A stretch of 64,000 nucleotides of DNA from Lampris incognitus (Eukaryota; Chordata; Actinopteri; Lampriformes; Lampridae): contig NC_079224.1 of the NCBI RefSeq assembly GCF_029633865.1, forward strand, positions 22,815,677 through 22,879,676. The letters run 5' to 3'. The position numbers and the translations under genes were made by a program. Below the pieces are notes generated by a model. It worked only from the letters and a program-made list of their open reading frames with translations. It was not told the DNA's origin and ran no database searches. Positions 20,201-49,778 of this stretch are shown piece after piece. Each line of letters starts with the position of its first letter. Within the stretch, counting starts at the first letter, position 1.

Positions 20201-23200
20201 AGTGAACAAACGTAGCTGCTGTTTTGTGATTTTCAGCCAGCTGTAATAAGCCATTTGCAACTCTGAAAATGAAATGAAAGCACCATCTGGTACCCTGATT
20301 AAGTACAAGAGGAGAAGGAGGAGCAGCAATGTGACAGTCCCTTTGACTTCCTCAGCTATTCGGCTTATATTTCATCTTACTATATGTGGAACCACTCGCC
20401 TGGCTTTATCGCCTCGAGTCATGCCCTGGCGTCCCTCTTAGTGCCGCTGCCGCCGTTACAGGAGCACCCCAGCTCAGCACAGATATGCCGTGCACCTCTT
20501 CCTACAAGCTGCCTCACACTGCAGGGTACCTTCATGGTAACGCCATCGACAGGCAGTCAGTGCCATCCACGTTTGTTTCGTATGGAGGACGCCACAGGTA
20601 ACGACCCGCCCTCTGTCTCTCATCACAGGCTGACCTGTCTGCACGACGTAATGTGCAAAGGTTCAATCAAGATTGTGATTTACATGTAAGAGGGTCAGTT
20701 GATTTGCGTGGAGTTTGTCGAATTTAATCTATTATTTTTTGTTGGTACTTTTTTTTTTGTCGTGTTTCTTTTCTGCAAACATTTCGATAGCAAGACCAAC
20801 ATTAAAGCTGCATGATTTTAGGGTCAAATATTGCCTTTATTTTAATCGGCATTGGTGTTGAACATCCCCCGCAAAGAAAAGCCCCTGTGGGGAAAAAAAA
20901 ACAAACTCAGTTGATTGCTGATCACGTTCTGTAGTTTCCCGCGAAATCTTTACTGGCCTACAAGAAGTGGCGTAACCTGTGTATTTACAGACTGGCATGT
21001 ATCTGTTGTTTAATACACAAATGGAAAAAAAACAACATCAGGAAATCAGTGTTAGCCATGCAGAACGACCCATCATTCAGGCGACATGAAATGGAGTTTT
21101 GTAAATCGCAGTCAATGAAAACAGTGAGCTGCATCATCTGCCGCCATTAAGCGGAAAGTCCCTTATGTATGCAGAATTAAATGGAAACCATGTGAAATTC
21201 TTCACACAGTGTGCATCACACAGGCTACTTTGAAACTATTGAATTGTATTCCAAATGTCTCCAAACTCTATGAGCTGACCTACACTGGTGTAAATGTGGT
21301 CCTTATGTATTATACTCCTTGCGTGAGATAAGTTGTAGAATGAATAATCTGTGATTATTTTTTTTACCTTTCACACATACCACTTGCATTCATTTGTTGT
21401 GAAGATGGTTTATGTACATTTTTCTTTTTGCTTCTGCTCTGCCGCAAAACTGCAGAAAATAATGGAGGAAAGTGCAGGAAAATATTTCTTTGTAAAAGCT
21501 TAGAGATGGGAAGAACTGATAAAATCATATCCAACACAACTTGCGTAGAAAGAATCAGATAATAATGTCATTAATCCTAACGTGATATTTACCCATCTTT
21601 TTTTTTTAACATTGTTTTGCAGTGCCTCTGGAACCAGTGTTGTTGCCATTGATAATAAAATTGAACAGGCTATGGTAAGTAACACTTTGTCTCTTGCTGT
21701 TTTGAAATGACAATTTGAAATGAATCAAATTCCAGGACTGATGGGCATCCAGTTAATGTAGCGGTCTATTCCATTGCCTACCATCCCGGGGATCACTGGT
21801 TCGAATCCCCGTGTTACCTCCGGCTTGGTTGGGCGTCCCTGCAGACACAATTGGCCGTGTCTGCGGGTGGGAAGCCGGATGTGGGTATGTGTCCTGGTTG
21901 CTGCACTATCGCCTCCTCTGGTCGGTCGGGGCGCCTGTTCAGGGGCATGGGGGAACAGCGTGATTCTCCCACGTGCTACGTCCCCTGGCGAAACTCCTCA
22001 CTGTTGGGTGAAAAGAAGTGGCTGGTGACTCCACATGCATCGGAGGAGACATGTGGTAGTCTGCAGCCCTCCCCGGATCGGCAGAGGGGGTGGAGCAGTG
22101 ACCGGGATGGCTGGGAAGAGTGGGGTAATTGGACGGATACAGTTGGGGAGAAAAAAAAGAGGCGGGGGGGACCAAACAAAAAACGAATGTTCAAATGGGG
22201 ACTGTCCAAATCAGTTATCTTTTGCTTGGTGAATTTCAGCAGTAAATTTAAAGGACGATGATAGGCAATGCAAAATAATTTTGTATGAACTCAGTCTCTT
22301 GTGGAAATTGTGATGCACCTGGTCTTTATTAGTGACGAGCATAACTGCTGGTGCTCACATTCTAGTTTGGGCACTCAATGTTCAGCCTCTGCCAAATAAT
22401 CAATTCAGCTAAAGTTATCTGATCTGATCACATTGATGTCCAAAACAATAACGTGAAGGTCTAATAGAAAGCTGACTGTTTTCAAAGGATAAACACCGAA
22501 ATTAACTCTGTTAATATCAAGTTAATTGTTAGATTCACCTGTTTATGACTAGCTATAGGTCTACTCATAGTTGAAAATAATGTAGCTTGCTATTACTCAT
22601 CCATTCCATCCATTATCCAAGCCGCTTATCCTGCTCTCAGGGTCGCGGGGGTGCTGGAATTGAACTTAATTTAAACTTTAAACATTATTAATAATTTTAA
22701 AGATAATTTCTGTTTAAGTCTCTGTTCTATCATTAATTCACTCTAGATTTTTTTTTATTACAATGGATAATCACGCACAAATTGTCAATCTTAAACACAT
22801 ACCCGTCTTATAAAACAACAAACGGATATCGTGGATAACATTGTCAAGGGTGTCTCCCTGCCTGCCACCCAATGACTGCTGGGATAGACTGCAGCATCCC
22901 CGTGACCCTGACAGCAGGATAAGCGGTTTGGATAATGGATAGATGGAAGTCAGGACTTTTGGTTTATTATAAAAGGGCAGGCACCCTGACAATGCTAAAA
23001 AATTGTTTCTATGGGCTGCCTTTGTGTCTTATTCATTCATATTTTGCTTTATAGCACCCACATCTAGATCTTATTTTCCTTGCCAAAAGTGCCTGCTTTA
23101 TATTTTCTGAATTATGTTTTTATTTCAGAGACAAGAGCCCTTTTTGTTTCCTGCAGAGCTTTTGCTTTTATGTGTAATAATACTGATCTAGACTGAATAT

Positions 23201-23747
23201 ACATGAACAACTGTAGCCTTTAGCAACGACTGTTGATCCATTTGGGAACATCTTGTCATTGTCTGCTGCATATGCTACATAACCCTATGTGGGGCATACA
23301 TGTACATGACTGTGCTGCCTCGGGTCACATCCTACATGATGTAACAGTATGTCGCCTCTCACCCTCTGCTCCCTTCTCCAGGATCTTGTGAAAAGCCATC
23401 TAATGTACGCAGTACGTGAGGAGGTGGAGGTCTTAAAGGAGCAGATAAAGGAGCTGTTTGAGAGGAACTCTATTTTGGAGCGGGAGAATGCTGTGCTGAA
23501 ATCTCTGGCCAACAGCGAACAGCTGTCTCAGCTGTCCACCCAGTCAGCAAGCAGCTCCAACAGTACTCCTCCCCAGCAAGGACTTGGCCAGGCCCAGCCG
23601 CCGCCCTTGACCCAGCTACAGGTCCAGGCTCCAACACAGCCCCAGCCTCAAATTCAACCCCAGCCTCAGTCACATCCACAGCAGCTCCAGACTAAACCTC
23701 AGCTTGATCCCAGCCAGCAAGTGCAACCCAACGTCACCTCCGCTTAA
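2934..23747 (+). CDS. tsc22d2: TSC22 domain family protein 2, whole gene (coding exons joined)
   Basis: TSC22D proteins are leucine-zipper regulators that dimerise through the TSC box and work in growth and stress signalling. The N terminus [17 protein letters not shown] and the acidic block with [20 protein letters not shown] (residues about 30-50) match TSC22D2 rather than D1, D3 or D4. A second conserved box ([20 protein letters not shown], about residues 182-201) follows. The middle is Q/P/S-rich and low in complexity. The C terminus has the TSC box ([32 protein letters not shown]) and leucine zipper, then a Q/P-rich tail. Coding exons are 2934-4840, 14788-14862 (cassette), 20442-20597 (cassette), 21623-21674 and 23382-23747. 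Without cassettes the frame is 774 codons plus stop; with both it is 851. The start has no upstream rival that matches the family. Confidence 0.95.
4841..6354. other. tsc22d2 intron 1, proximal part
   Basis: Intron 1 runs from 4841 to 14787. In this part I see only AT-rich intron sequence, a G-run at 5493-5506 and short homopolymers. There is no coding signal. Confidence 0.5.
6355..6405. repeat. Perfect inverted repeat, 23-bp arms, 5-base loop
   Basis: Arm 6355-6377 is the exact reverse complement of arm 6383-6405, with loop GATTA. It lies in tsc22d2 intron 1. No terminal element signature or target duplication is evident. Confidence 0.9.
6476..7488. mobile_element. Non-autonomous hAT-type element, TAGAGATGCA ends
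   Basis: The left end TAGAGATGCACCAATCC and a degraded right end (CAACTCTA) bound about 1 kb. Flanks are CTTTTAAG (6468-6475) and CTTTTAAA (7489-7496), an 8-bp target duplication with one mismatch, typical of hAT elements. Both ends carry subterminal repeats of GATATC/CCGATA type. It contains an inverted repeat at about 6863-6927 and a possible LINE ORF1 scrap, but no hAT transposase. Confidence 0.7.
7190..7300 (-). pseudogene. Zinc-knuckle scrap, possible LINE ORF1
   Basis: On the minus strand a short frame reads [18 protein letters not shown] and then stops. This has the G-x2-GH-x4-C core of the zinc knuckles in ORF1 of Tx1/L1-type LINEs, but the first Cys pair is incomplete because the upstream sequence is a poly-T run. 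It lies inside the hAT-type element at 6476-7488, so it may be captured or nested DNA. The call is tentative. Confidence 0.3.
7497..8100. other. tsc22d2 intron 1, no feature seen
   Basis: I see nothing but ordinary AT-rich intron sequence here. Confidence 0.5.
8107..8217. repeat. Hairpin with (CA)n/(TA)n microsatellite core
   Basis: Arms AAATCGGTGTTGTGTATA (near 8107) and TATATACAACACCGATTT (ending near 8217) are inverted copies. The space between holds (AC)n followed by (AT)n. Short apparent reading frames across it on both strands are repeat artefacts. Confidence 0.8.
8289..8350. repeat. Inverted repeat, about 24-bp arms
   Basis: ATATCAACACAGATGCAGGA and its near-exact inverse TCCTGTATCTGCGTTGATAT face each other around an A/T-rich loop. 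It sits immediately before a second, larger palindrome and is probably part of the same fold-back repeat. Confidence 0.8.
8355..8490. repeat. Long imperfect palindrome, about 65-bp arms
   Basis: The left arm starts ATAATCCAGTGAGTCAAGTC and the right arm ends GACTTG...CACTGGATTAT. The centre is CAATCAGCTGATGATTG. Arms differ at a few positions. The flanking segments GAGGAGCGGAATATC and TTTTGCTCCTTATTC suggest the 8275-8515 block is a single fold-back element. Confidence 0.8.
8491..11049. other. tsc22d2 intron 1, mostly unremarkable
   Basis: It contains a TTTA/TTCA tetranucleotide run at about 8549-8587. A short scrap at 9411-9440 (TCAATTTTATTTGTATAGC) is a tail shared by many fish retroposons. 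There is a (TA)n/(TG)n run at about 10133-10170. I see no coding signal. Confidence 0.45.
11058..12223. mobile_element. Non-autonomous hAT-type element, TAGAGATGCA ends
   Basis: The left end TAGAGATGCAGTGAT and the right end ATCAGTGCATCTCTA form inverted termini. Flanks ATTGTAAT (11050-11057) and ATTTTAAT (12224-12231) make an 8-bp target duplication with one mismatch. It is the same end family as the element at 6476-7488, but the inner sequence is different. No transposase is visible. A coding-like stretch at about 11560-11690 (minus strand) is unexplained. Confidence 0.75.
12232..14787. other. tsc22d2 intron 1, distal part
   Basis: It holds a C/T-rich block at about 12700-12950 and a strong pyrimidine tract at 14690-14770 that leads into the acceptor of cassette exon 2. 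A 60-codon open frame at 13371-13553 has no splice or homology support. I see no other feature. Confidence 0.45.
14788..14862 (+). CDS. tsc22d2: tsc22d2 cassette exon A (25 codons)
   Basis: The acceptor is GGCACAG|GAACCC and the donor is GATAG|GTACAG. It is 75 bp and phase 2 at both ends, so it can be included or skipped without changing frame. With exon 1 it reads [20 protein letters not shown] and then KAHSD. The long pyrimidine tract before it supports use. Whether it is constitutive in any tissue cannot be told from DNA. Confidence 0.75.
14863..16526. other. tsc22d2 intron, no feature beyond microsatellite
   Basis: A (GT)n/(GC) run lies at about 14915-14973. I see nothing else. Confidence 0.45.
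16527..16650 (-). repeat. Dispersed fish repeat (CCATTATCCAAACCGCTTATCC family)
   Basis: It contains the inverse of the segment seen at 41137-41264 and 50617-50745 (tgatggactggcggcctgtc ... ggataagcggcttggataat). It looks like a retroposon-derived interspersed repeat. The family name is not known to me. Confidence 0.6.
17006..17385 (+). mobile_element. tRNA-derived SINE, family 1, copy 1
   Basis: It starts GGGCGTCTTGGTAGCGTAGC, so the A-box-like TAGCGTAGCRG is present. The segment that carries the B box in sister copies is deleted here. The body (ACAATTAGCCGTGTCTGC ... CCACATGTATCGGAGGAGGC) matches the other copies, and the end is an A/G-rich tail. Confidence 0.75.
17386..19104. other. tsc22d2 intron with a TG/TA/CA microsatellite
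   Basis: A self-complementary (GT)n-(TA)n-(CA)n array lies at about 18951-19029. The rest is featureless intron. Confidence 0.45.
19105..19529 (+). mobile_element. tRNA-derived SINE, family 1, copy 2
   Basis: It has an A-box region GGTGGCGTGGTGATC and an intact B box GGTTCGAATCC at 19161-19171, giving a pol III internal promoter. The conserved body ends in a G/A-rich tail. Open frames across it are by-products of its GC-rich body. Confidence 0.8.
19530..20441. other. tsc22d2 intron, no feature seen
   Basis: Ordinary intron sequence with a G-run at 20049-20060. It ends at the acceptor of cassette exon B. Confidence 0.45.
20442..20597 (+). CDS. tsc22d2: tsc22d2 cassette exon B (52 codons), predicted
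   Basis: The acceptor is CCCTCTTAG|TGCCGC and the donor is CCACAG|GTAACG. It is 156 bp and phase 2 at both ends, matching the phase of every other junction between exon 1 and the TSC-box exon. In that frame it reads [18 protein letters not shown] and on to [14 protein letters not shown], with no stop. A second possible acceptor lies at GTTACAG|GAGC, but it would change the frame. No homolog is known to me. Support is phase and splice-site quality only. Confidence 0.55.
20598..21622. other. tsc22d2 intron, no feature seen
   Basis: AT-rich intron with no repeat or coding signal noticed. Confidence 0.45.
21623..21674 (+). CDS. tsc22d2: tsc22d2 TSC-box exon 1
   Basis: The acceptor is TTTTGCAG|TGCC and the donor is GCTATG|GTAAGT. 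It encodes [18 protein letters not shown], the invariant start of the TSC box. It enters at phase 2 and leaves at phase 0. Confidence 0.95.
21743..22168 (+). mobile_element. tRNA-derived SINE, family 1, copy 3
   Basis: B box GGTTCGAATCC is at 21798-21808 and the full conserved body follows, ending in an A/G-rich tail. It sits about 70 bp downstream of the TSC-box exon donor. Confidence 0.8.
22593..22950. repeat. Inverted pair of the CCATTATCCAAACCGCTTATCC repeat
   Basis: A plus-orientation head at 22593-22655 and an inverted piece at about 22838-22950 flank about 180 bp of AT-rich DNA. This looks like two truncated copies facing each other, or one copy with an internal inversion. Confidence 0.5.
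23382..23747 (+). CDS. tsc22d2: tsc22d2 last coding exon (TSC box 2, leucine zipper, tail)
   Basis: The acceptor is CTTCTCCAG|GATCTT. It encodes [20 protein letters not shown], the zipper with leucines in [19 protein letters not shown], then a Q/P-rich tail ending NVTSA and TAA at 23745-23747. The tail differs from mammalian D2 but has the same length class and composition. Confidence 0.95.
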
Positions 23748-26490: not shown

Positions 26491-29400
26491 CTGTGAGGGG
26501 GAAGAGGAGGAGACTTGTCAGCAAACCCCTACTAAAATTTTTCACTCAACTGCGAGCACAGAGTTTGATCTGGTGTACTTTCTTCAACTATTGTAATAGA
26601 AAAAGATAAATCGAAGTTCTCCAAGGGCCTTTTGAGAGGATAAATGACTCGGTAGGTGCCATGGTTTTGGAAGATTTGGAGCAGTGAGTCACTTAATTAT
26701 GACCCTCATAGGCCCGTGTACTTGCTCATAAAGAAAATCCAACCATCATTCCCTCACCGGTTTCCCAACACTGTTTATGTCAAACTGGAGAGCCACTCCT
26801 TTTGGCGTTTTCTTCTCTATAACACCCGTCTTCACTGGGACAAAGCTGACAGCTGGGGGGTGTAGGGACCATGCAGAGGGAGGCCTAGGGGAAGTTTGAG
26901 AGAAACTTAACGTTTATCGTTACACCCATGTTTGCAATGTGCCTTATGTGTATTGTGAAGAGTGGGGTTTCAATGCCACATGAAAATTTCTTGCACATAC
27001 AATGTGTTTAGCAATTGAGGACAACGCTGATTACAAAAAAAAATTACTTTCTGAACGTGCCGACACAACCAGTTATCTCATAAAGTGACAGTTAAGACAT
27101 TACGTGTTGTTTAAAGGATTCTGTTGGGTTTATATGGTTGGCAGTATTTACTCAGGCTGTGTTCTGGCTGTGGGGTTGTCGATCGATACTGTCAGGATTC
27201 CACTGCCATTCGTTGATGTGCGCCACCTGGTGGTAAAACGGAAGAAGGTAATATTACTGGATTGGCAAGATGTACCAGAGATAAAACAAATAACAATGTG
27301 CCCTAAAGTGTTGGACGAGGATTACCACTGACATCTCCCCCTTTTAAACATATGTCTCCATCAAATACACATACAACATGTTTTAAACCAACATATTTTG
27401 TCAGGTGTACAGCTAATGCTGAAAAAACATCTACAAATACTCACTGGCGAGTTCTGACCGGAGCTGTGCGCTGATTTGGCTTCTGCACCTGGGCATGAAT
27501 CTGAAGGGTGGAGAAATTTCACATGAGGAATAAACTCACAGTAGGAATAGTCACAGTAGGATCTATTCAATAAATAGCTTAGGTCATAAAGAGGCTTTCA
27601 GATAAGCTGTTGTATCTGCACACGTGCCTTTCATATAGTGAAATATAAGTGTGATCAATTCACACATATAAATATTCACAACATGATCTGTTACACTATA
27701 AATAGATCTAATGATACCCCTTACACCTGGATGTCAGAGCCCCCCTAGAAAACTGGAGGTAATAAATACCTTGAGCCCCCTACGGATGAGAAAGGTTGCC
27801 TGACGCGCCTCCCTCTGGGCCTGATGGACAGGTGGCAATGGTCTGTATCATTGAGATACAAGAATTAGTATCAAGAATATTACTAGTGTACTTCATATGA
27901 CATGCACTCTTGTGGCATTGTCCAGCTCCTTCTTTTTTTGGGGGGGGATTTTTTTTCTCCCCTTTTCTCCCCAATTGCACCCAGCCAATTAACCCACTCT
28001 TCTGAGGTGTACCAGTCGCTGCTCCACCCTCTCTGCTGATCCAGGGAGGGCTGCAGACTACAACATGTCTCCTCCAATACATGTGGGTCACCAGCCGCTT
28101 CTTTTCACCTGACAGTGAGTAGTTTCGCCAGGGGGACATAGCATGTGGGAGGAACACGCTATTCCCCCCAGTTCCTCCTCCCCCTGAACAAGCACCCCGA
28201 CCAGCCAGAGGAGGCGCTAGTGCAGCGGCCAGGTAACATACCCACATCCGGCTTCCCACCCACAGACACGGCCAATTGTGTCTGTAGGGATGCCCGACCA
28301 TGCTGGAGGTAACACAGGAATTCGATCCGGCGATCCCCATGTTGGTAGGCAATGGAATAGCCCGCCACGCTACCCGGACGCCAGCTCCTTTTTAATTTGA
28401 ACCTACTACCACTTGCCATTGGTGAGCTATCCATGGCACATGACATGCAGTCTTGGCTATGATACTACTTTTTGAAACTAAAGTGTCTGTAGGAGAAACA
28501 TGAACATATCTACTGACTTGCTCGTCATTTTGGATAAAAAGGTCTGCTAAACGAGAAAGTAAAATTCTAAATGTAACTAGTAGCTAATGGAAATTAATTC
28601 AACTTCACTTTGCATAATTTTATGTTTTCTTGTTTCCCCCACATGAAGAATCATTAATAAGACCCTGTTCGTATTTTTAGATCTCACCGTCTCTGCAGCT
28701 GAAATGGTCTCCTTACTGATGCTGTATTCTGGCCTCTCTGTGGGTCTGCTGCTCTGTAGCGCTTTCGTTGCACATCTGATCTTCTGTATTGGGCTTCATT
28801 GTATTGGATAAAAGGCCTTGTTTTCTGGATGGGGAAGTTTTAAAGTAAACAATTCATACAGGTGGAGTAAGGTCGACTTTTTGGATGTTTCACCATGTCA
28901 CTGTATCCTAAAATCTTCTGATCAGTTTATAGCTCCATGTGGCGTAATGAATGTAGCATAAACTCTTTATGACAGTTAGCTGCCTCCCACAAACTTCAAA
29001 AGGCCACTGACATGGTGGAAGTACAGATGCAGGGTACAAAAGCTGGATTCAGTTCTAGAATACGATGCCAGATAAATTGACTTTCTTTCAGTTATACTTG
29101 TCAATGTTTCTCCCCCTAGAAAATATAGCTAATACACCTAATATCCAGAGTCAGCCAATACAATTTGTATCACATAATGCATTTTAAGTGCCCTCATTTT
29201 TGTTTTACACTGATGTTTTGGATCCCATTAACTTCAGTTTTCCACAAGCACTTGCTTTCTTTCAGACACTGGGAGCTCCAACCCAATGAAGAAGAATGCT
29301 ACCAGAATTATTTTTTAGCCTTCTCATCTCCAACTGTGTGAGCCTTAGTATAACTTCCCCCAAGAAGTAAAAATTTAGCTGACATTGGGGTTAACAAGAT

Positions 29401-32400
29401 GAGGTATAGCATGCCAGTGTTTTGGGGGGGCTCAACATTTTTGCCTGCCTCCCTCACTTTCTTCACTCCCTTTTGTTATCTTTTGTTGGCCACCGTTAAA
29501 CTTTCTGCGGCCTTCCATTACTCGATGTTATAGACAGTATATCACTGTGGTAATCATTATTGCTGTCAGGCAAAAATCCCATACCTGCAAAGAAGCTTAC
29601 TTTACAGGAAGTGAAAAAAAGATTTCATCATTTTAAACCAAACATTACATTATTACAAGCTTTGGAAAACACGTTGCATTTGATTAGGAATATTGAGACA
29701 TTCACAAACTCTTAACTAGGTACCTATACATTCGGTTTACATATTAGAAAGAACATTGCCAAATTTGCAGATACGTTAATTTCGCCACCAGACAGCAATG
29801 TTCTGTTCTTAAAAAAAGCATGGAAATAAGGGTAGTCTCATCCCATGAATCGTTAAAATTATAGAAATGAACTTTCAGCAGAGAGGTAGAGAAATCAACT
29901 TTTGTTACATCTGCTCTCCTTTTTATTGAAAATGAAATCATTCATTTTCACAGAAAGTTAAATCAGTTCATCTGGACACATCGTTTATTGAGAGAAACGT
30001 TTCATCACTCATCTAAGTGACCTCTTCAGTCTCAACTGACTGCAGCTATTCCCATCCTTAGGATATGCACATCACATCTGCATATGAAACCGATTGTTGT
30101 TTTTCAGTGTTATGTTACTGTATTGTTTTTAAGGGTAGGGATACCTGCAATCATTTGAGACTGAAGAGGCCACTGCATAAAGCCACTTTATTTTGTCATT
30201 GTATCCTTACAACAAATTTGATCTCTGCATTTAACCCATCCTATTGTACAGGAGCAGTGGGCAGCCGTAGCGCCCAGGGACCAACTCCTGTTCTTCTTTC
30301 CATTGCCTTGGTCAAGGGCAAAGTCAGGAGTATTAACCCCAACAAGCATGTCTTTTTGATGGTGGGAGGAAACCGGAATATCCAGAGGAAACCCACGCAG
30401 ACACAGGGAGAACATGCAAACTTCACACAGAAAGGACCTGGGACGGCCTGGGGTTTGAACCCAAGACCTATGTTAACCACTGGGCATGGTGGCCCAGTGG
30501 TTAGCATATGACAACTGCTGTTAGAGGATCGGTTTTGGTCATTATGCAACTGTACTGTTTATAAGGTTGGGGATCCCCGCAGTTAGCTGAGACTGACAAA
30601 GTCAATTAGATGTTTGATGAAACGTTTCTCCCACTAAACCTTGTGTCCCGATGAACTGATTCAGCTTTTCTGGAATATGTAATATGTCCATAGAATTAAT
30701 GAAATAACCTCAAGTAAACTCGTAATCAATATGTACAACTATATCCATAGAATTAATGAAATAACCTCAAGTAACCTCGTAATCAATACATACAACTATA
30801 AAACTGTACCCACCAGTTAGGTTGATTTTACACAGTTCATTTGATTGAATCCTTATTCACTCTCATCAAAATTAATGTCACTGGCCCACTAAAATGCTGA
30901 GGAGCACAATGCACTAAATATGATTGAGGTAAGAATGTATGATAAAGCTCTTCTCTTCTGAAATACAAAGAGTTACAAATTGACTATACATTACATGGGC
31001 TTTAGCATTTGTTTTTCTTCCACCCTTACACTGGTGGCCAGTAATCATTTACCTTGTTCCACCAGCTCATCAGCAGGTTAAAGAATGCACTCAGTGAGTG
31101 AGCAGAGGGTGGCGTAAGAAGACATGACATATACAGGACAAGCACTGAGAACTTACATAGAAGAATCAACATTGACAGGTTTACTGGCAGATAGTCGCAG
31201 GGAGGACATCATTTTCAATTAATTCCCTCCCATTTTGCTTTTAAAACGTATCTTGGAAACAGAAAACTGACGGTGGATTTCTTTATCACTTACTGTCACA
31301 ATAATCACTTATAATCCACCAGCAGGGACAATGCATATGCATTAAAGCCAAGTGTCTTGATGCATGCTCAATAATCCAGGTAAGGAAATCCTAGAAAGTT
31401 GATTGAATCAGTTCATCTGTCCAGTTCATCTGGACATTTTTAGTGGGAGAAACATTTCATCATTCATCTAAGTGACTTCGTCAGTCTCAGCTGACTGTAG
31501 GTATCTTCAACCTTATAAACAGCATAATTGCATAATGACCGAAACCAACGATCTGTTCAGCCGTTATACAACTGTGCTGTTTTTAAGGTTGGGGATACCT
31601 GCAGTCACCTGAGACTGACGAAGTCACTTAGATGAATGATGAAATGTTTCTCCTACTAAACGTTGTGTCCAGATGAACTGATTCAACTTTCTGGGATTAA
31701 GGCCAAGTCTACCTTTCAGATGGTTACAAAATGAAGGCTCTTCTAAACTGATGATACCAGTGCCCCAACATACTTGGCTGGCCCTAGTGTGTATGATTTC
31801 CTGTAGTACCTGAGCAACTGCTGTCCTGTTGAGTAGGCTGGTGCCTTTCTGTAGCGCAGCTGGCCTCCTAGCTGCCAGTCCGGTGATGACCCCTTGACCA
31901 CGTCGTCGACCAACTGGGGGTGGGACCCTTCTGCCTCTCAACTTAGTTACTCTACCTCGTGACACACCACTCCCTGGAAAAGACATTGATGTACAGTGCC
32001 TTCAGAAAATATTCACCTCCCCTCCCATTGAACTTTTTCTTATTCGGTTCCCATTACACCATCAAACTTTAATGCATTGAAATATTTCTCCCTTCAGTAA
32101 CACAATGAATGCAACATATTTATAAAGCAAAAAAATCTTAAGAATTTTTTGAAAATAAAAGACAAACTGTTCATGCGCAAAAGTGTTAAAACCTCAAGAG
32201 TAATTTTTAGACAGACCTTCAGCAGCAATTAAAGCAGTGTGTCTTCAGGGGTACGTCTTTCTCAGACTGCAGAAGGTCAAATCCGCAAAGGACTGAAGAC
32301 ATTATACATCTAGTAGGGTCTAAAACCTCAATTCCGTGACCACTCTCTGGTTAACATGTTTTGATGATTTATTTGACTTCTATGGACCTTTTGAAAGAAA

Positions 32401-35098
32401 TTTAGCTCCCATGTCCCTCCCAAAAATCCCGGGCATTTTTGCTAGAGGGCCAAATCCAAGATGGCTGCCTGCGGCCATATTGAAAAATTAACTTTTGAAC
32501 CAGAGCACCTAGAATCATGGATGAGGACACTTTTTCATATAAGTCAACCATAAGGATTCTGATTCTGACAGTTTGACATTATGACATCATTTTGACCCAG
32601 AAATCCAAGATGGCCACCATCCAGTGGAGTGAAGATGTGAACGGGAAGGTGTTTTTCAGTGAACGTTGCCTATAAAAGACAACTTCTAAAGTACATTTTA
32701 TGTCTAAACTAAATTTTATCATTTAATCTGGTAGATCATGCTGTTACCCTTCAAATGATGTATAATACACCAAGGTTTAAACAACAATAACTTATAAAAT
32801 ATGGTAAACATGTAGCCTATACACCTGTCTGTTTGACGTTATGACATCATTTTGACCCAGAAATCAAAGATGGCCACTATCCTGTAGAGTGAAAACATAA
32901 CTTTGAATCCAGAATCCATGCCTACCAAATCACCATTATGTTCACTGAAAAGATAATGTCAAAACCCATTTTACCTTGGTACTACTGTACATTAAACAAA
33001 CTACCTTCATAAGGACCTCTTGCAGTATAATTGATGAATTCATGACAAGAAAACTAATAACTTCAAAATAAGCTCTTTTTATAGTGAACTTAACAATACA
33101 ACAACAACAAACAGCTGTCATTGAAACCTTAACACCAACAAGCTTAAAACATCACATGATCAGTCTGAATAAGAGCATTCTGAATCATCAGATTCCGATG
33201 GATCCCCCCTCCTCTTCTGTACATCATCATCTCCCTCCTCCTCCTCCTCACTGTCATCTTCCTCACTCTCTTCAGCTGGCTCTGGTGCAGATAGGTTGGC
33301 AAAGTCATCATTGTCAATGATGCAGATGCTTGGCTCTCCTTCAGCTATCTCGTTAGGACACACAGAACACCGCTCGAGGTCATGCGTGGCCCAGACATCA
33401 CGCAGGAGAAGCACATTTGGGTAGCTGATCCCCATGCCCAGCTTGTAGAAATAGTCAACAAGCTCCTTGCTGCGAGTGATCCCGTGAAGGGTGATGGTGG
33501 TATTGATGGCGGTAGTGGTGGGTCGCTTTGTGACATATTGTGTGATGAGAGAGCTGAGAGAGAGTGTGCTCGGAGATAGATCCACCCCCTCCTTCCCCCG
33601 CAAAGCAGACAGCAGCTGCACCATGAGAGGCGAGAGTTCTTCCTCCTCCTCTAGCTCCTCGACCTTCGGCGGCCATGGTACAAGTTTAATTGACTTGATG
33701 TCATCCCTGAGCCACTCAGCCACATTGTGAACCAGTTGCTCACTGCTGACACCAATGGAGGAAAGTGCTGCTTCCACATATGAACCACCCCCAGACGTGT
33801 CATAGACTAGGTTGCTCTGGTTCTTGAGGGCGGGAGTGGAAGCCGACCTTGCCCTCAAACTCCCGGGTCAGGATGTCTTTGATGTAGGATGACTTGATCC
33901 TGGATGTTGGGAAGCCATACTGAGAGATGATGGAGCTGTAGTCTTTGAGGAGGCTCTGCAGTGACCTTAGCTCATGTTCCTCAAAGATGACTGTTCTTAT
34001 GTGGTCAAAGAAGATAGACTGAGCCTCATGGAGAGTGACATTTTGCATGTGTGGAAGTTTGTCATCTTCACTCATTTTCTGATAATTACGCACATATTTC
34101 AACCAGCATTTTAAGTGATATCTGATCTCAAGTGCGTAGGGCTGATCAGCGGCAGAATCGATCAGACAGTTTATTCTGTCTCGCATTTTCTGATGTTCCA
34201 AGGTCACTGTGTGGCTCTTGAAAACTGCCCATGCGTGATCATACGAAATCAGCTTCAACTTTGATTCTGGGTGCTTGACTGACTCAGTCTTACAGCACCA
34301 GACACATTTTGTTTTATCATGTATCTGCCCTAGACTCGATCGCAGCCGTTTGGTAGCTGGAGCCGCAACTGGGGAAGAAACATCAGAAATAGATGAAGAC
34401 TGAGATTGGCATTCATCAACTTCTCGTTTTTTCTGTCTTTTCTGGGCCTGTTCCAGTTTCTTGACATTCCATAAGGTCAGCGTACATGTATCATGGACAC
34501 ATTGTCCGACGGGATCTTTATCCCAATCAACAGTTAGTTTCATGGACATTTCCAAACTTGTCAAGACCGCTCCATAACAGGGTCCTTTTCTTGATATTTT
34601 CCCACCTCTGAATTGAGGAAATGGAATCAGTGGCTTCATCACAAAGCCTGCCACACTGGAGGACACATGGAGTCTGATGAATTATATGCTGTCTATTTGT
34701 CCCTGTAAGTTGATTGATTTCTTCCATTCTCAAGCAGTTATGTACATCTCTACTGTTCCATTCACCTATAGGCAAAAACAAAAAACAAGTTTGCTCAGGG
34801 TGATTTTCTATGATGGTACATTAGTTTATAGTTTAAGTATTGCTTAATTGAACTGGTGCTTTTTTTCAACCGAGGCCATCTCCAAAAATTAAATAATGTA
34901 CTTTAAGTTGATACTTTAATGTAATATAACAATATAACAATGTATATACTTCACACAAAAGTTTTATAAAATCAGGTGATTCGTGATTAAAGTCATGTGC
35001 ATTTTTGCCAACCAGCCCTATCACAGCATTGGTTGGCACAATGTTAAAATGTGATCAAAATCACTAGCTAGCTATGCTAGTTTATGAACAGTTGTTAA

Positions 35099-35134
<36 letters not shown>

Positions 35135-35522
35135 TGAATATGTATAGCCTATGAAACACACACTATTAATGCTGTGCACCTGCTTGTGTGTGTGTGTGAG
35201 CTAAAGTTAGCAACTAGTAGCGATTGTGATCAAGCTAGCAAATATGAAATGTGATTAGCCTTTATTAGCTAACAAATATTATTTATTATTATTAATATCA
35301 ACACAATGATAAAAATATCATGAAAACTGTGATACTTACTTTAGTCTCAGGATCAAAAGAGTGTGATGACCGCGGAATAGGCTAATAATTATCTAGCTAG
35401 CTAGACAATTTTCTGAAAGGTCATGACCACAATATTTTTGAAGGGACAGTAACTAACAGCCTATTAGTTGGCCAGCCCTGACCCGCAACCCCGTCACGCA
35501 AGCACGCAAGCACGCACGCACC

Positions 35523-35571
<49 letters not shown>

Positions 35572-37050
35572 CACAGGAGGCACAGACAGGTATAGGCTAC
35601 ATGTTTACCATATTTTATAAGTTATTGTTGTTTAAACCTTGGTGTATTATACATCATTTGAAAGGTAACAGCATGATCTACCAGAATAAATGATAAAATA
35701 TAGTTTCAAAGTAGAATCTACTTTAGAAGTTGTCTTTTAAAGGCAACGTTCACTGAAAAACACCTTCCCGTTCACATCTTCACTCCACTGGATGGTGGCC
35801 ATCTTGGATTTCTGGGTCAAAATGATGTCATAATGTCAAACTGTCAGAATCAGAATCCTCATGGTTGACTTATATGAAAAAGTGTCTTCATCCATGATTC
35901 TAGGTGCTCTGGTTCAAAAGTTAATTTTTCAATATGGCCACAGGCAGCCATCTTGGATTTGGCCCTCTAGCAAAAATGCCCGGGATTTTTGGGAGGGACA
36001 TGGGAGCTAAATTTCTTTCAAAAGGTCCATAGAAGTCAAATAAATCATCAAAACATGTTAACCAGAGAGTGGTCACGGAATTGAGGTTTTAGACCCTACT
36101 AATCTCTGGGCAGTTTTCCCATTTAAGACACTAAGCATTGCAACTCTGAATGTTGTAGCTGGTCTTTTGGTCACTTCTCTGACAATTACAAGATTTGTCA
36201 GTTTGTTCAATTAAGTTAGAAGGGCTGGTGTTGGTAGTGCCTGTGTTGTGCCTTAATGTTTTCTCATTTGTTTCAATGAGCAATGAGTGCACACAGAAAT
36301 GCTTTGCCAATCTTTTCATAACATTCTCCGGCATTTAACCTGCTAGCAACTCCAATTTAATCCACTGATACAAAGGGCGTGAATGATCAAATAAGTGAGT
36401 TTCAGATTTTTATTTCTGGTATATTTCCGAAGGCCACTAAATACTTCGTTTCCTTCTGATATTATGAACGGATACTTCCTTAAGATACAACGAAGATTCC
36501 ATTTCAATTTGACTTCGTAACACAGCAAAACAAGAGACACCCAATGTGGACACATCATTTCTGAAGCCACTGTAGTAGACACCAAGGCCGTTTTTAATTG
36601 TAAAAGGCTTAAAACGACGGGACTTCAAGGGATGGGGGGGGGGGACAATCGTATACACACCTCTTTGGACCGGCCCTCCTGCTCTTGTGATCCCCTTTCC
36701 CTGGGCTGTACGACCTTTCTTCGGTACTGGCCTGCGGTTCCCGATGGCCCGTCTCCTTCTTGACTGTTGCTCTTTTTTATTCAGGCGAATAATGTCATCT
36801 GTTGGAGAAAAAATAAAAGACACGGGCAAAATACTGCAGATGAGCAATGTGATTTTCTGATGAGTGTCAATGCATTAAAAGTGCAAATACAAACGAACTA
36901 AAATGGTTGCTTAAATAGGCGAGTGTCTTAACTAGTAATGCCGTTATTACTAGGTTAAACTGGAGCCGAGGCCTTACCTAAAGACATATCGACCTTATCA
37001 GGCACCGCTGATTTTTTCCCGCGCCCAGCAGTAGATCCATTTTCGCTCAT
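26389..37050 (-). CDS. fyttd1: UAP56-interacting factor (forty-two-three domain containing 1), whole gene
   Basis: FYTTD1/UIF is a nuclear adaptor that binds the RNA helicase UAP56 (DDX39B) and helps load NXF1 onto mRNA for export. The N terminus contains the UAP56-binding motif KVDMSLDDIIRLNKKEQ. The middle is Arg/Gly-rich and basic (GRRRGQGVITGLAARRP; RQATFLIRRGLK). The end has TLTVSIDNP-like ILTVSIDNP, TPKGVALQFDINSVGK and the C-terminal MTLNERFRILKDQR ... GSRFVTVG, all matching vertebrate UIF. Nine coding exons on the minus strand are 37050-36978, 36798-36661, 31973-31810, 28824-28688, 27842-27770, 27488-27445, 27226-27152, 26845-26758 and 26490-26389. Phases join throughout to 297 codons plus TAG; the human protein is slightly longer. 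Intron 2 (36660-31974) is swollen by a 3.8-kb transposon. Confidence 0.93.
26758..26845 (-). CDS. fyttd1: fyttd1 coding exon 8
   Basis: The acceptor is GCTGTCAG|CTTTGT and the donor is AAACCG|GTGAGG. It encodes VKTGVIEKKTPKGVALQF and then DINSVGKP. An upstream AG (CCCCCAG|CTG) also exists but gives the wrong phase. Confidence 0.85.
27152..27226 (-). CDS. fyttd1: fyttd1 coding exon 7
   Basis: The acceptor is CCACCAG|GTGGCG and the donor is CCTGA|GTAAAT. It encodes QWRTSTNGSGILTVSIDNPT then ARTQP. WRTSTxxGGILTVSIDNP is conserved in UIF. Confidence 0.88.
   Translation of the reverse strand: MAHINEWQWNPDSIDRQPHSQNTA
27445..27488 (-). CDS. fyttd1: fyttd1 coding exon 6 (44 bp)
   Basis: The acceptor is TGCCCAG|GTGCAG and the donor is CGCCA|GTGAGT. 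It encodes VQKPNQRTAPVRTR plus two bases. It is shorter than the equivalent part of the mammalian protein. Confidence 0.8.
27770..27842 (-). CDS. fyttd1: fyttd1 coding exon 5
   Basis: The acceptor is GATACAG|ACCATT and the donor is CTCAAG|GTATTT. It encodes PLPPVHQAQREARQATFLI then RRGLK. RQATFLxRRGLK is a family hallmark. A second AG at CCATCAG|GCC would keep the local frame but not join exon 4 in phase. Confidence 0.85.
27935..28382 (-). mobile_element. tRNA-derived SINE, family 1, copy 4 (fyttd1 intron 4)
   Basis: A minus-strand copy. The head GGCGTCCGGGTAGCGTGGCG is at the right end, followed by a B-box relative near 28325 and the full body to a T-rich left end (tail). It produces a spurious 190-codon frame. 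Confidence 0.8.
28688..28824 (-). CDS. fyttd1: fyttd1 coding exon 4
   Basis: The acceptor is CCATCCAG|AAAACA, phase 0, and the donor is GAGACG|GTGAGA, phase 2. The product runs through EAQYRRSDVQRKRYRAADPQ to VRRPFQLQRR, aligning with the mammalian QY...KRKAN...LKRPSQLSRK segment. Confidence 0.82.
28825..29952. other. fyttd1 intron 3, distal part
   Basis: I see no feature in this stretch. Confidence 0.45.
29953..30672. mobile_element. Penelope-like terminal repeats, interrupted by a SINE
   Basis: Segments 29953-30175 and about 30515-30672 carry the CAGTTCATCTGGACACA ... GAAACGTTTCATCACTCATC repeat found at 31358-31700, 38112-38290 and 45978-46607. The last of these is linked to a Penelope-like coding scrap. 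The two pieces lie on either side of a family-2 SINE. Confidence 0.55.
30176..30505 (-). mobile_element. tRNA-derived SINE, family 2
   Basis: A minus-strand copy. The B-box inverse GGGTTTGAACCC lies near 30450 and the head (ACTGGGCCACCATGCC inverse) near 30490. The body GGGAGAACATGCAAACTTC matches the copy at 60893-61262. Confidence 0.75.
30683..30796. repeat. Two-unit tandem repeat, 57-bp unit
   Basis: Units 30683-30739 and 30740-30796 both start TATRTCCATAGAATTAATGA and differ at only a few positions. Confidence 0.85.
30797..31357. other. fyttd1 intron 3, no feature seen
   Basis: I see no gene or clear repeat here. Confidence 0.45.
31358..31700. mobile_element. Penelope-like fold-back repeat
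   Basis: It starts TGCATGCTCAATAATCCAGG and the second half inverts the first (GAAACATTTCATCATTCATC ... GATGAATGATGAAATGTTTC). A CATAATTGC/GTTATACAACTG spacer lies between. It is the same family as 45978-46607. Confidence 0.6.
31810..31973 (-). CDS. fyttd1: fyttd1 coding exon 3
   Basis: The acceptor is CTTTTCCAG|GGAGTG and the donor is GCTCAG|GTACTA. It encodes an RG-rich segment with VGRRRGQGVITGLAARRP, matching GVITGLAAR of mammalian UIF, and LLNRTAVAQ. It leaves at phase 0. Confidence 0.9.
31992..32290. mobile_element. Tc1/mariner end fragment
   Basis: TACAGTGCCTTCAGAAAATA begins at a TA and is the known outer end of a fish Tc1-type element. About 290 bp of its leader, including the CTTCAGGGGTACGTCTTTCTC stretch, is present. 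The opposite end is absent. Confidence 0.6.
32311..36101 (-). mobile_element. DNA transposon with about 520-bp inverted repeats, superfamily unresolved
   Basis: Left repeat 32311-32831 and right repeat 35583-36101 are near-identical inverses, starting TAGTAGGGTCTAAAACCTCA. ATC flanks both ends (32308-32310 and 36102-36104), suggesting a 3-bp target duplication. An extra degenerate copy of inner-repeat sequence lies at 32832-32900. The body encodes a broken protein on the minus strand (33160-34781) and contains (TG)n at 35102-35131 and (CA)n at 35528-35568. It lies in fyttd1 intron 2. Long repeats with a 3-bp duplication do not fit hAT, Tc1 or Harbinger. Academ-like is one possibility. Confidence 0.8.
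33160..34781 (-). pseudogene. Transposon-encoded protein of unplaced family, frameshifted and shortened
   Basis: This resembles a multicopy protein family I know from fish and invertebrate genomes but cannot name. The order is a Cys-rich head (VLQCGRLC) with SSIQRWENIKKRTLLWSGLD, then VDWDKDPVGQCVHDTC, KCVWCCKTE...KHPESKLK, HLKCWLKYVRNY, and after it LVYDTSGGGSYVEAALSSIG and TRSKELVDYFYKLGMGISYP to CSVCPNEIAEGEP and IIDNDDF. It then ends in an acidic tail (SEEDDSEEEEEGDDD). Relatives continue long past IIDNDDF, so the catalytic part seems deleted. The frame changes near 34525 and near 33830, so it cannot make one protein. The many Cys and His residues suggest zinc-binding modules. Confidence 0.6.
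36105..36660. other. fyttd1 intron 2, between transposon and exon 2
   Basis: Unassigned sequence with a G-run at 36635-36643. Short open frames have no recognisable product. Confidence 0.45.
36661..36798 (-). CDS. fyttd1: fyttd1 coding exon 2
   Basis: The acceptor is CAACAG|ATGACA and the donor is AAAGAG|GTGTGT, phase 1 to phase 1. It completes DDIIRLNKKEQ and adds a basic, Gly-rich stretch (RRRRAIGNRRPVPKKGR). Confidence 0.9.
36978..37050 (-). CDS. fyttd1: fyttd1 coding exon 1
   Basis: ATG is at 37050-37048. It encodes MSENGSTAGRGKKSAVPDKV then DMSL plus one base. The donor is TTTAG|GTAAGG. The UAP56-binding motif is split between this exon and the next. Confidence 0.9.
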
Positions 37051-38072: not shown

Positions 38073-41000
38073 GTAAAAAAAATTGAAACAGGCCACATTT
38101 ACACCAGAGAATAATGTCTTTATGCATGCTCAATGATCCATGTAAGGAAATCACAGAAAGTTGGATCAGTTCATCTGTGACCCCTTCAGTGTCTGTCAGT
38201 TGAGACCAAAGAAGTCACCTAGATGAGTGATGAAACGTTTCTCTCAATAAACATTTTGTCCAGATGAAATGATTCAACTTTCTGTGACCAGAGAAGAATA
38301 TTTCTGCATTGCCAATGTTTTGTTTGCCTTCTGTGTTGCAGATAACTGGGCCCTTATCCATGCTCAGAAGCTGGCTGTGGCAGAGAAGCTACCCCTGCAC
38401 ATCTGTGTCTGTCTGTTTGCCCCAAAATCCAAATTGTCTACTATCCGGCATTATAGTTTCATGTTAAAGGGTCTTGAAGAAGTTGCTAAGGTAAAGATGC
38501 TAAAGGCTGTGGTTTTTAACAGAGCATCATTCCCTGTATGTTTCCCTGCTCAGATGGCTGGGCTATTAAATAAAGCTAGTTAATATTTAACACATGGAGG
38601 GAAAATGATGAACGCAAACTGGATGAAACAGATGGAGCCCAAAACCCACATTACAGTCAATTTATAAGGTCTTCTTGACTGATGAATGCACCGGATATGA
38701 GTGGGACTAAATACACATCCTAGTCTAGGGCCATGCTTATGTTGTGCACCCAACCCACAGGAATGCCAGGCTCTTGACATTCAGTTCCACCTTCTTCATG
38801 GTGCAGCAGGCGAGGTGCTGCCTGGGTTTGTGTCAGACCAGGGTTTTGGGGCTGTGGTGACAGATTTCTCCCCTCTCAGAGAACCTCTGCAGTCATTGGA
38901 GGATGTCAAAAAGAAGCTTGCAGCGGACATCCCTTTCATACAGGTACAAAATCTTACCTCCCCTTCTCACTTTTTGATGGTAACATTAATCCTGAGTTCT
39001 TGATTAGTTTCCTTGCCTTTACTCATATATTCCTTGGCCTCTGGAGTTGCCCTCGGTCAGATGATAATAACTTGTAACCCAGAAAGGGGGCATGCATCCC
39101 ATATTAAGAAAAATGTCCCTTGCACTTACTCATAAACATGAATCACAACAATTTCCTTTCCATAGGTTGATGCCCACAATGTTGTGCCTTGCTGGTTAGC
39201 ATCGAACAAGCTTGAGTACTCTGCCAGGACCATCAGGGGAAAGATCACCAAACTTCTTCCAGAGTTTCTCACCGAGTTTCCTCTGGTTGACAAACACCCA
39301 TATACAGCCACTAGAACTGCCAAGGTACCTGCCAAAAACTGCCTGAAGAGCTCTGTTAATAACATTGTGGTTAACAGAAACATGTTTCTGTTTAGTATAT
39401 GCATGTTCTTTGTAGCTGTCGATTAAATGACAAAAAGGATACTAATATGCAAAAAAAGAAGAAAAACCACAAGACTTGTGTGTCTACTAAAAATTTACTA
39501 CAAGATACTTTTTGGGTTTGGTCACGACAACAAATTAATTACTTTTAAGTTCTTAAGAGTGATGCAACAATTCTCTTTATGACAAAAATGCCAAACAGCT
39601 TTTAGGATTTTTTTTCTTTCCTAAACCCTTACATTGGAGCCCTTGAGATATAGGATTTCACCACACTGTTGTGACTTTGGTACTTTTACTGGTGTAAATG
39701 TTCCTTACCCTCTCAGCCGAAGGTAAAAGACTTAAGTCCAGAACACACTGGCACCGATTGACATGTGTTAAGAGGGACGCCCCTATTCATTTCAATATAA
39801 AATCAGTGCACTGGTGGCATCTAGCATCTGCTTGATACACATCTCCTTGACACACTGTGACTGCTCAAATCCATTTTTTGTTCTTCAGCATCAACGCTCT
39901 TACAGATTCATATTTTCTTTGGAAAAAGGATCTTTGAGCAGCACTTTACATATTTGATGCATGTTGGCTGTCATTTGACTTGCCGCTCTGTTTCCGAGCT
40001 GGTGTGTTTTCGGCTTTTAAAGACAGGAGGCGGCGCTCTGGAGGTGGCAGAGTTGAAGATGCTAAGATTTTAATTGGGAGTGACGAAGGAGGACAGGATT
40101 AGGAACGAGTATATTAGAGGGACAGCTCAGGTTGGACAGTTTGTAGACAAAGCAAGAGAGGCAAGATTGAGATGATTTGGACATGCATGGAGGAGAGATG
40201 CTGGGTATATTGGAAGAGGGATGTTTAAGATGGAGCTGCCAGGGAAGAGGAAAAGAAGAAGGCCAAACAGCAGGTGTATGGATGTGGTGAGGGAGGATAT
40301 GTAGGTGACAAAGGAAGATGCAGAGACAGGAAGAGATGGAAACGGATGACCCGCTGTGGTGACCCCTAACGGGAGCAGCCAAAAGTAGTAGTAGTAGTAG
40401 TAGTAGTGTTTTGGGCTTTTAGTATTTATCCGCACCTTCTGATGTACATACTTCACAAAAACATGAAAACCTTTTCTAGGTTACCGCTGATAAACCTAAT
40501 CTTTTGACTGTGACCATTTTTCTAAATTCTCTCCCCTCCCCTGTCTTTATCATACAGCCAGTGGACTGGGACAAAGCCCTGGCCTCTCTGCAGGTGGACA
40601 AAGCAGTGGGAGAAGTAGAGTGGGCAAAGCCTGGTGCAGCAGCAGGGATGGCTATGCTGGAGTCCTTCATCGACATGCGCCTTAAACAGTTTGCTACCCA
40701 GCGTAACGACCCAAACTCGGTTGCTCTCAGCCAGCTCTCTCCCTGGATCCGCTTTGGTCAGTGTTTGGAAATATATTAAAAAAAAAAAATCAGTGAAAAG
40801 GGGGGGGGATTCTCCAGCGTAGCAGGAGTCACATTGGTGTTTTCTACGTGAGGAGGACCTCACGATCACGGAAAGCCTGGAAATTATGTATATGAAATGT
40901 GAAAACTATGCCCTAGACCTTGTTTGTTCATGTCAGACACTTAAAGTATAACAAATAATATTTAAAGGTATATCTTGACAAATATTTGTGGAATTAGGAC

Positions 41001-44000
41001 TGTTCTCGTGGAAGAGTGATTGAAATCATAGAAGTTGATTAACAGGAGGGGATGAGGGAATTTATTTCATACAATGAGCACAGCATTAGATTTAGACATC
41101 ACAAATCCATTGCTCTCCGGTCCCATTGTCTATGGCCATCCATCCATTGTCCAAACCGCCCATCCTGCTCTCAGGGTCGTGGGGATGCTGGAGCCTATCC
41201 CAGCAGTCATTGGGCAGCAGGCAGGGAGACACCCTGGACAGGCCGCCAGTCCATCACAGGGCAATGTCTGTCATCATCATTAAATCATGGTATTGCACTA
41301 CTTAAAAAAAAGATATATGTATACAAAATATAAAGTGCATTGACAGGACTTCAAAAAAATATCCATGCAAAGTGGAAGTGCTCAGTATTGTGCTTAAAAG
41401 CACCACGTTCATCAACCATCTTTCCTACTGCTCCGCTCATGCCATGAAATCTCATTTCTTTCTCTTCTTTCCTCCTTTTGTCAATCCCTTGCTCCTTCTC
41501 CTCAGGTCAGTTGTCACCCCAGCGAGCGGCCATCGAGGTGCAGCAGGGTGGCAAGAATGCTGGCGAGTCCGTCTCCTCTTATATTGAGGAGTTGGTTGTC
41601 CGCAGGGAGCTGACTGACAACTTTTGCTTCTACAACAAGAAATATGACAGCGTGAAAGGTCAGCAAAGAGCCCAAGTTTTTTGGTTTTTTTTTTTTTGCC
41701 ACGGTAACTGTACCATTGCTCAACTTGTTTCCATGTTGTTGTTGTTTCCCAAAGGAATGTTAATACCACAATCGTAAAGTGTACAAACAGGGCGTCCGGG
41801 TAGTGTAGCGGTCTATTCCATTGCCTGCCAACACAGGGCTCGTCGGTTCAAATCCCTATGTTACCTCTGGCTTGGTTGGACATTCCTACAGACACAATTG
41901 GCCGTGTCTGTGGGTGGGGAGCTGGATGTGGGTATGTGTCCTGGTTGCTGCACTAGTGCCTCCTCTGGTCGGGCGGGGCGCCTGTTTGGGGGGAGGGGGA
42001 ACTGGGAGGAATAGCGTGATCCTCCCACATGCTACGTCCCACTGGCAAAACTCCTCACTGTCAGGTGAAAAGAAGCAGCTGGCGACTCCACATGTATCGG
42101 AGGAGGCATGTGGTAGTCTGCAGCCCTCCCCAGATCGGCAGAGGGGGTGGAGCAGTGACCGGGACGGCTTGAAAGAGTGAGGTGATTAGCCAAGTACAAT
42201 TGGGAAGAAAAAGGGGGGTAATCCAAAAATAAAGTATACAAATGGATTGATCCATCTTTTTCATGAAAGTTTTCCACAACGGTTGTAGCATTAGCCAGTT
42301 TTGTCTAGCCGTATATACCATTTTATAATGCTGCTTTGTGGTCTCTGGTGGGTCCAGGTGCAAATGAGTGGGCACAGAAGACCTTGAAAGATCATGCCAA
42401 AGACCCCAGGCCATACATCTACACATGTGAACAGCTGGAGAAATCCAAGACCCATGACAAGCTGTGGAATGCGGCCCAGGTACGCTGTTCACCTGCAAAA
42501 CACTTTCAACAGATCTCTCCGTTTATTCCTCAAGGTTACAAAAAAGGATGGTCTAGATCAGGGGTCTCCAACCTTCTTTCCTCTGAGAGCTACTTTTACG
42601 AAATGAAAATGGCCGAGAGCTACTCGTGTTTTGTAACATTTATTCTCATAGCTCATTTCAACCTAAACAAACTGAATCAGCTTGTTTTGCCTGAACATTC
42701 ACAAAATGTTGGTTTCCACAACTCACATTTTGTATTAAAACATCCCAAGTGTATTTAATTCACCTGCATGTGCGTTTTGTATTTCTGCATGCATTTCTTT
42801 CTAGTCTATCTCACACTATCAAATTGAAATATGAATGCTGTCAAAACAAAATGCAATTACAAATACACAGATATTATTACTTACTCACTTGTCATTTTGT
42901 TATATCTGTCCACATGTCACTGTATCACTTCACAAGAGTATTCACATGTACAGTTGTATGTGTGATGTGTATTCAGTCTTTTGTAGTTAGTGAGATGACT
43001 GGCACTGCATGGAGTCAACAAGAGAGGTGTATGCTGGAGTGTATCCACTCAGGTTCACTCTTATGGAGTCATTTAAATGTTCATCTGTCAGTCTTGTTCT
43101 GAATTTTGGTTTCATGACATTCATGTCAGAAAAGGCAGACTCACAGAGGTATGTAGACCCAAACAAAGCAGACATTTTCAGAGCTGCTTGGTGAAGATTC
43201 TTATAGTTATCTGGCTCTACTAAGCTCCAGAAATGCTGAGAATGCTGTTGAGTCTTTAACTGCACATTATTTTGAAGGTTTATTACCTCAATTTTCATTT
43301 CTACAGGATCAACACAGAAAAGTTCAGCAATCTGTCCTGAAATCTCACTTATGTCCACATCCATGAAGGGGTTGGCCATAAATGTCACACAGGGCTCAAG
43401 TTTCTCAAAGTCACTGAATCTGTCTGCAAACTCCTGTCACAGCCTTGACAGGAGGTCACAATACTTGGAAAAATTTAAAATGCTGGCTGCACCTGTGTGA
43501 CTTTCCAACATCTTTGAGACACAGGGGAAGTGCTGAAACCTTTTGTTTTTCACTTGCTGAATGTGCAATGACAGTTTTGCTCTGAACGCATTGACAGCAC
43601 TGATCATATCAGATATGTTTTTATCTTTGCCTTGTAACTGTAGGTTCAGGTCATTAATTTTCTCAGTTACATCTGTTAGGAAAGCAAGATCAAGTAGCCA
43701 CTCTGCATCAGATAATAGGGTGGTATCCTCCTCCCTCGTTTCCATAAATGCCTCGATTTCATCCAGCAAGGAAAGAAAGCGCTGTAGTATCTTACCCCGA
43801 CTTAGCCATCTGACTTCAGTGTGGAGGAGGAGATCCCCATGCTCCGCAGAGCATTCCTCCAGCAACAGCTTGAAGCTCCGGTGTTGCTTAGCCTTTGCTC
43901 GAATGGAGTTGATGATCTTAACAACAGGTGCCATCACACGGTCAAATTCCATAACTTTTGCGCATATAGCCTGCTGGTGAATGATGCAGTGATAGTTCAA

Positions 44001-49340: not shown

Positions 49341-49778
49341 ACCCCCCCCCTTTTTTTTCTCCCCAGTTGTACCTGACCAATTACCCTATTTTCCGAGCCA
49401 TCCCGGTCACTGCTCCACCCCCTCTGCCGATCTGGGGAGGGCTGCAGACTACCACATGCCTCCTCTGATACATGTGGAGTCGCCAGCCGCTTCTTTTCAC
49501 CTGACAGTGAGGAGTTTCGCCAGGGGGACGTAGCATGTGGGAGGATCACGCTATTCCCCCCCAGTTCCCCCTTGCCCCTGAACAGGCACCCTGACTGACC
49601 AGAGGAGGCGCTAGTGCAGCGACCAGGACACATACCCACATACGGCTTGCCACCTGCAGACATGGCCAATTGTGTCTGTAGGGATGCCCGATCAAGCTGG
49701 AGGTAACACGGGGATTCAAACTGGCGATCCCTGTGTTGGTAGGCAACAGAATAGACCGCTACGCTACCCAGACGCCCC
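49341..49778 (-). mobile_element. tRNA-derived SINE, family 1, copy 6
   Basis: A full minus-strand copy. The head is at 49778 (GGGGCGTCTGGGTAGCGTAG inverse), with a degenerate B box near 49720 and a T/C-rich tail at the left. Confidence 0.82.

Follow-up and report, generated by a model that had tools for sequence, protein, structure and literature searches.

A probable dead, internally deleted DNA transposon with long terminal inverted repeats in Lampris incognitus

The described transposon groups closest to the locus considered here can be compared with it through the size of their target-site duplications and through their termini. In PMC10045372, duplications of 3 or 4 bp are given for AcademX and of 9 or 10 bp for AcademH; Zator, which is related to prokaryotic ISAzo13, appears with 3-bp duplications, Harbinger/ISL2EU and their relatives (PHIS) with none or with 1–4 bp, and IS3EU with TA..TA termini and usually 6-bp duplications. 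EnSpm/CACTA and relatives (CMCT) have duplications of 2–5 bp and mostly CA..TG termini according to PMC12730594, and the Repbase rule for non-autonomous elements, as worded in PMC4455052, is that terminal positions 1–11 align to a member of equal duplication length. Set beside these values, the element described below, with ATC on both sides, has a putative 3-bp duplication that would match AcademX and Zator and lie within the ranges of Harbinger/ISL2EU and EnSpm/CACTA, and it shares TA..TA termini with IS3EU. Unlike EnSpm/CACTA, its termini read TA..TA or GT..AC rather than CA..TG; unlike IS3EU, its flanks agree over 3 (or 2) bp instead of 6 bp; and unlike Academ/AcademX, no DDE core or XPG nuclease is seen in it. 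None of its three gene pieces has a Pfam match at cut-off, a lack that does not exclude Zator since the core appears to be missing in the element. Academ elements encode one large protein, which we count as a likeness, and the usual 3-bp site of Harbinger is TWA, as against ATC here. A long cysteine-rich N-terminus is not known from Zator.

The window analyzed is a single stretch of 64 kb of Lampris incognitus DNA, to which all positions refer; the element spans 32311–36101 (3,791 bp), and BLAST finds one copy of it in the window. Its features are listed in Table 1. The two arms pair with 13 mismatches across 512 nt ungapped, and BLAST lengthens the alignment to 522 columns (97.1%; 32311–32832 with 35582–36101). 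Complementarity ends at 32311 and 36101, the adjoining bases being C at 32310 and A at 36102, and chance is no serious explanation for an inverted repeat of 512 nt at 97%. The first-pass annotation had described nearly identical inverted repeats of about 520 bp bounding a 3.8-kb element flanked by ATC, a description that these measurements bear out. The mismatches are unevenly spread, with 3 across the outer 361 positions against 10 across the inner 151 (p = 0.0005 by Fisher's test, for a boundary picked post hoc), a pattern that partial homogenisation of the arms' outer parts might explain in this single copy. Folded as single-stranded DNA, the outermost 160 nt of the arm formed no hairpin more stable than those of shuffled sequences (z +1.09; 172 of the 200 folded equally well or better), and no palindrome in the left arm exceeded the threshold of a scan. 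Mutually complementary TG and CA tracts lie inside the element by the right arm, at 35104–35132 and 35528–35569.

Table 1. Positions in the window of the element, its flanks and its gene pieces
Feature	Position	Strand	Evidence or remark
End of older Tc1-like element, left flank, outside the element	31992–32266	.	Scores 146 in local alignment to a Tc1-like sequence; 200 shuffles reach at most 44
ATC, left copy of putative 3-bp target duplication	32308–32310	.	Alternative: TA at 32311–32312
Left terminal inverted repeat	32311–32822	+	Against right arm, 512 nt with 13 mismatches; to 32832 with indel
AAATCCAAGATGGC motif, left arm, site 1	32452–32469	+	Pattern match
69-nt unit in left arm	32565–32633	+	Direct repeat at 32825–32893; 62/69 identical
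AAATCCAAGATGGC motif, further site	32601–32618	+	
69-nt unit, extra copy at inner end of left arm	32825–32893	+	Repeat listing, BLAST
AAATCCAAGATGGC motif, further site	32861–32878	+	
Acidic C-terminal tail directly after IIDNDDF	33163–33300	-	Presumed junction of a putative internal deletion
Gene piece 3, stop-free span, frame 1	33163–33867	-	CSVC (33358–33369), IIDNDDF (33301–33321), acidic tail, stop 33160–33162
Gene piece 2, stop-free span, frame 0	33803–34681	-	VHDTC (34484–34498), CVWC (34295–34306), YHLKC (34106–34120)
Gene piece 1, stop-free span, frame 2	34530–34820	-	CVLQC (34653–34667), WSGLDKF (34554–34574)
Right terminal inverted repeat	35590–36101	-	Pairs with left arm; to 35582 with indel
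AAATCCAAGATGGC motif, further site	35794–35811	-	
AAATCCAAGATGGC motif, further site	35943–35960	-	
ATC, right copy of putative 3-bp target duplication	36102–36104	.	Alternative: TA at 36100–36101

A short motif recurs in the element. Written as AAATC(C/A)AAGATGGC(C/T), it has five sites in the 64-kb window, all five of them within the element, and an 18-base version allowing up to 2 mismatches recovers the same five, shuffled sequences giving a mean of 0.11 and a largest count of 2. The five sites amount to less independent evidence than their number suggests: two follow automatically, as mirror images, from the inverted repeat, and another lies in the 69-nt duplication. A second extra copy of the 69-nt unit was not found beside the right arm, either in the repeat listing or by BLAST. 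The repeated AAATCCAAGATGGC motif may represent candidate transposase-binding repeats.

Confined to the interior is a minus-strand gene that survives as overlapping stretches without stops, one in each of three frames, along which the Cys/His and other motifs follow one another in consistent order. As its reading frame is interrupted at least twice, this gene copy is probably dead; inspection by eye showed no case of introns as the cause of the frame shifts. A splice-acceptor-like CTATAG was noticed by eye in gene piece 1 (34766–34771). The protein with a Cys/His pattern and an IIDNDDF-type motif proposed in the first-pass annotation is recovered as far as its motifs are concerned, but these are distributed over three frames rather than carried by a single open reading frame; that the protein ends in an acidic tail, as also claimed there, is confirmed, IIDNDDF running straight into an acidic stretch and then a stop. 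The remaining gene contains no catalytic residue set. We take the protein to belong to a widespread animal family, whose fish and cnidarian members presumably continue for many hundreds of residues beyond DNDD(F/W) before Cys-rich and acidic ends. Because these presumed relatives run on past DNDD(F/W), the middle of the gene is probably missing, and it is plausible that the catalytic or central part was deleted, as would suit a gene that stops in an acidic tail right behind IIDNDDF. What the element keeps is probably the N-terminal, zinc-binding part of a transposase, which may also bind DNA.

Taken together, these features make it highly probable that the element is a non-autonomous and now dead copy, shortened by an internal deletion, of a cut-and-paste DNA transposon with long inverted repeats. 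This is supported by inverted repeats that stop at ATC flanks, by an interior gene with ordered motifs, by the location of all five motif sites inside the element and by the duplications of 3 or 4 bp reported for AcademX; short direct duplications (3 or 2 bp) bounding the inverted repeats are as in transposons of this type. Points against it are the lack of a catalytic residue set and of Pfam matches at cut-off in the gene pieces, and the presence of one copy in the window, which leaves movement presumptive. A single copy could also be expected if a pseudogene had merely been enclosed in an inverted segmental duplication, with no transposon involved; we consider this very improbable, since complementarity breaks off abruptly at matched ATC flanks, a subterminal motif is repeated and the gene layout is, by eye, transposase-like. 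The exact position of the ends is a closer matter. The junctions read ...TATACATC/TAGTAGGG on the left and CCCTACTA/ATCTCTGG on the right, the slash marking the element boundary, so that ATC adjoins the element at both ends, and flank agreement beyond the inverted repeats is limited to these 3 bp. The ends themselves, however, read TA..TA, and a self-complementary TA would pass as part of the inverted repeat: TA being its own reverse complement, the true termini could be GTAGGG..CCCTAC, flanked by a TA duplication and belonging to a TA-targeting group, with the ATC match a coincidence. This would require a chance match of two 3-mers, expected at 0.018 (about 1.8%) at window composition, as against a chance TA end under an ATC duplication, TA making up 0.057 of dinucleotides at the same composition, and the comparison favours ATC by about 3:1; moreover, proteins of this kind are not known from TA groups, which we count against TA-flanked ends. 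We regard a TA duplication as unlikely, and a 3-bp ATC duplication as the simplest and likely interpretation. The 3-bp duplication of the first-pass annotation thus stands as regards ATC on both sides, and has a competitor in TA. An ATC duplication would imply the pre-insertion site CATCTCTGG, CATCTCTGGG, whereas a TA duplication would instead imply CATCTAATC, CATCTAATCTCTGGG. The older Tc1-like end in the left flank decides nothing on the empty site, because the right flank, compared with the Tc1-like sequence, did not exceed shuffles and three joins all score 146.

If the element is such a deletion derivative, its full-length parent would have encoded one long transposase, consisting of an N-terminal zinc- and DNA-binding region, a catalytic core starting near IIDNDDF and an acidic C-terminus. 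The core has apparently been lost here, the frame that is left is interrupted at least twice, and mobilisation, if any, would probably occur in trans, a supplied transposase recognising the long inverted repeats and the repeated AAATC(C/A)AAGATGGC motif. Insertion would take place at a staggered cut, most likely of 3 bp.

As to the superfamily, Academ, which the first-pass annotation had named as one to test, remains the best candidate, but we stop short of assigning the element to it. That it arose by deletion from an AcademX transposon, a type combining a DDE transposase with an XPG-type nuclease and 3–4 bp duplications, is a tentative assignment to which we give somewhat less than an even chance. 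Fish and cnidarian relatives presumably have the same N-terminal motifs and DNDD(F/W), followed by an 'SPDTDVFVL' region that we take for XPG-like, and it is because of these relatives, and not of any test, that AcademX is ranked first. Neither XPG nor DDE is seen in the remaining pieces; for the XPG-type nuclease, none of the three gene pieces matched a Pfam model at cut-off, this copy seeming to be without the part that would hold the domain. Up to E=10, a composite sequence of the presumed XPG-like region matched nothing in Pfam or PDB, and one of the presumed catalytic region nothing in Pfam, so that the link through these relatives is itself unsupported. The ATC flanks agree with the 3–4 bp given for AcademX in PMC10045372, but the same text gives sizes that also fit for Zator (3 bp) and Harbinger-type groups (0–4 bp), so that duplication size alone does not single out Academ. 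Rather unlikely, in our estimate, is membership in a large group of animal transposons that lacks a superfamily name and possesses its own DNDD-type core. The gene pieces match no Pfam family at cut-off, and the strings IDNDDF, WSGLDKF, WRGLDKF and GLDKFG were not found in the papers searched, as would suit such a group; Pfam, however, is not meant to cover every transposase, and motif strings are seldom printed in the text of papers, so that these absences carry little weight. On the suggestion in the first-pass annotation of a poorly described system, the results speak neither for nor against. We hold it unlikely that the more specific form of this proposal applies in full, namely a relic of a widespread animal group defined by an unnamed core with a D-N-D-D start, inverted repeats of about 520 bp, repeated subterminal sites containing AAGATGGC, and 3-bp duplications. 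As it stands, one broken copy of a DNA transposon matters little, and since it is single and broken there is little to test on it. Should full-length relatives share its ends and carry an XPG-type nuclease, AcademX would gain a family; should they carry another core, an unnamed superfamily would emerge among 'uncharacterised' animal proteins.

Database searches for relatives yielded no identification. All three gene pieces were without a Pfam match at cut-off; DUF7025, which scored 14.8 bits where 27 are required (E=0.035), was discarded as an identity, as was an ARM model at E=1.5. Searching PDB with gene piece 2 gave nothing of note, two matching chains at E=0.83 being taken as chance. In IMG/VR, an exact 28-mer of the inverted-repeat end had no match, and peptide patterns of gene pieces 3 and 2 were fitted by 324 and 7 stretches, respectively, none of which was confirmed. 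Searches by tblastn found no relative of gene piece 2 among PLSDB plasmids and none of gene piece 3 among INPHARED phages. With regard to the presumed relatives, the composite of the catalytic region fitted two IMG/VR stretches, neither confirmed, and the GELH..FA..AIG and Cys-tail patterns had no match in IMG/VR. Four GTDB matches to GELH..FA..AIG, three with internal stops and one open, showed by eye no other part of the family and were put down to chance; likewise rejected was the single IMG/VR match to a DTDVF pattern, which lies in a frame full of stops on a contig with, by eye, phage-like open reading frames. As IMG/VR, GTDB, PLSDB and INPHARED cover microbes, viruses and their mobile elements, their silence says little on animals. 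In the literature, the word 'Academ' is absent from the main text of PMC9341512, on zebrafish transposable elements.

Several other features were recorded in the 64-kb window. On the minus strand, a relic at 56017–56541 and 56532–56981 matches Viral_alk_exo (PF01771) with 24.8 bits, above the cut-off of 20 (E=1.1e-5). The open reading frame beside it has no Pfam match and contains a CNCMAG...CTHVAAL stretch, which we take to resemble a SWIM zinc finger, and the region 56017–56981 is possibly another mobile element, with an exonuclease. Also on the minus strand are a hAT transposon relic (42990–44874), in which Dimer_Tnp_hAT is just over the cut-off and DUF4371 and zf-C2H2_12 are under it, and a weak zf-RVT match (61996–62403; E=1.2e-4, 23.1 bits, under the cut-off of 27.5) that is possibly a LINE relic. 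On the plus strand, the open reading frames 2922–4844, for which Pfam gave no match, and 23340–23747 presumably resemble exons of a TSC22-domain family gene, which would point to a vertebrate host, probably a fish, as do other gene fragments and repeats in the window. A dispersed repeat occurs in at least six places and in both orientations (17047–17336, 19106–19488, 21743–22112, 27981–28397, 41790–42169 and 49372–49791), the listed units being 61–95% alike. Another family of dispersed repeats, at 29945–31699, 38195–38287 and 45974–46541, has copies close by in direct and in inverted orientation and stops about 300 bp short of the Tc1-like end to the left of the element.
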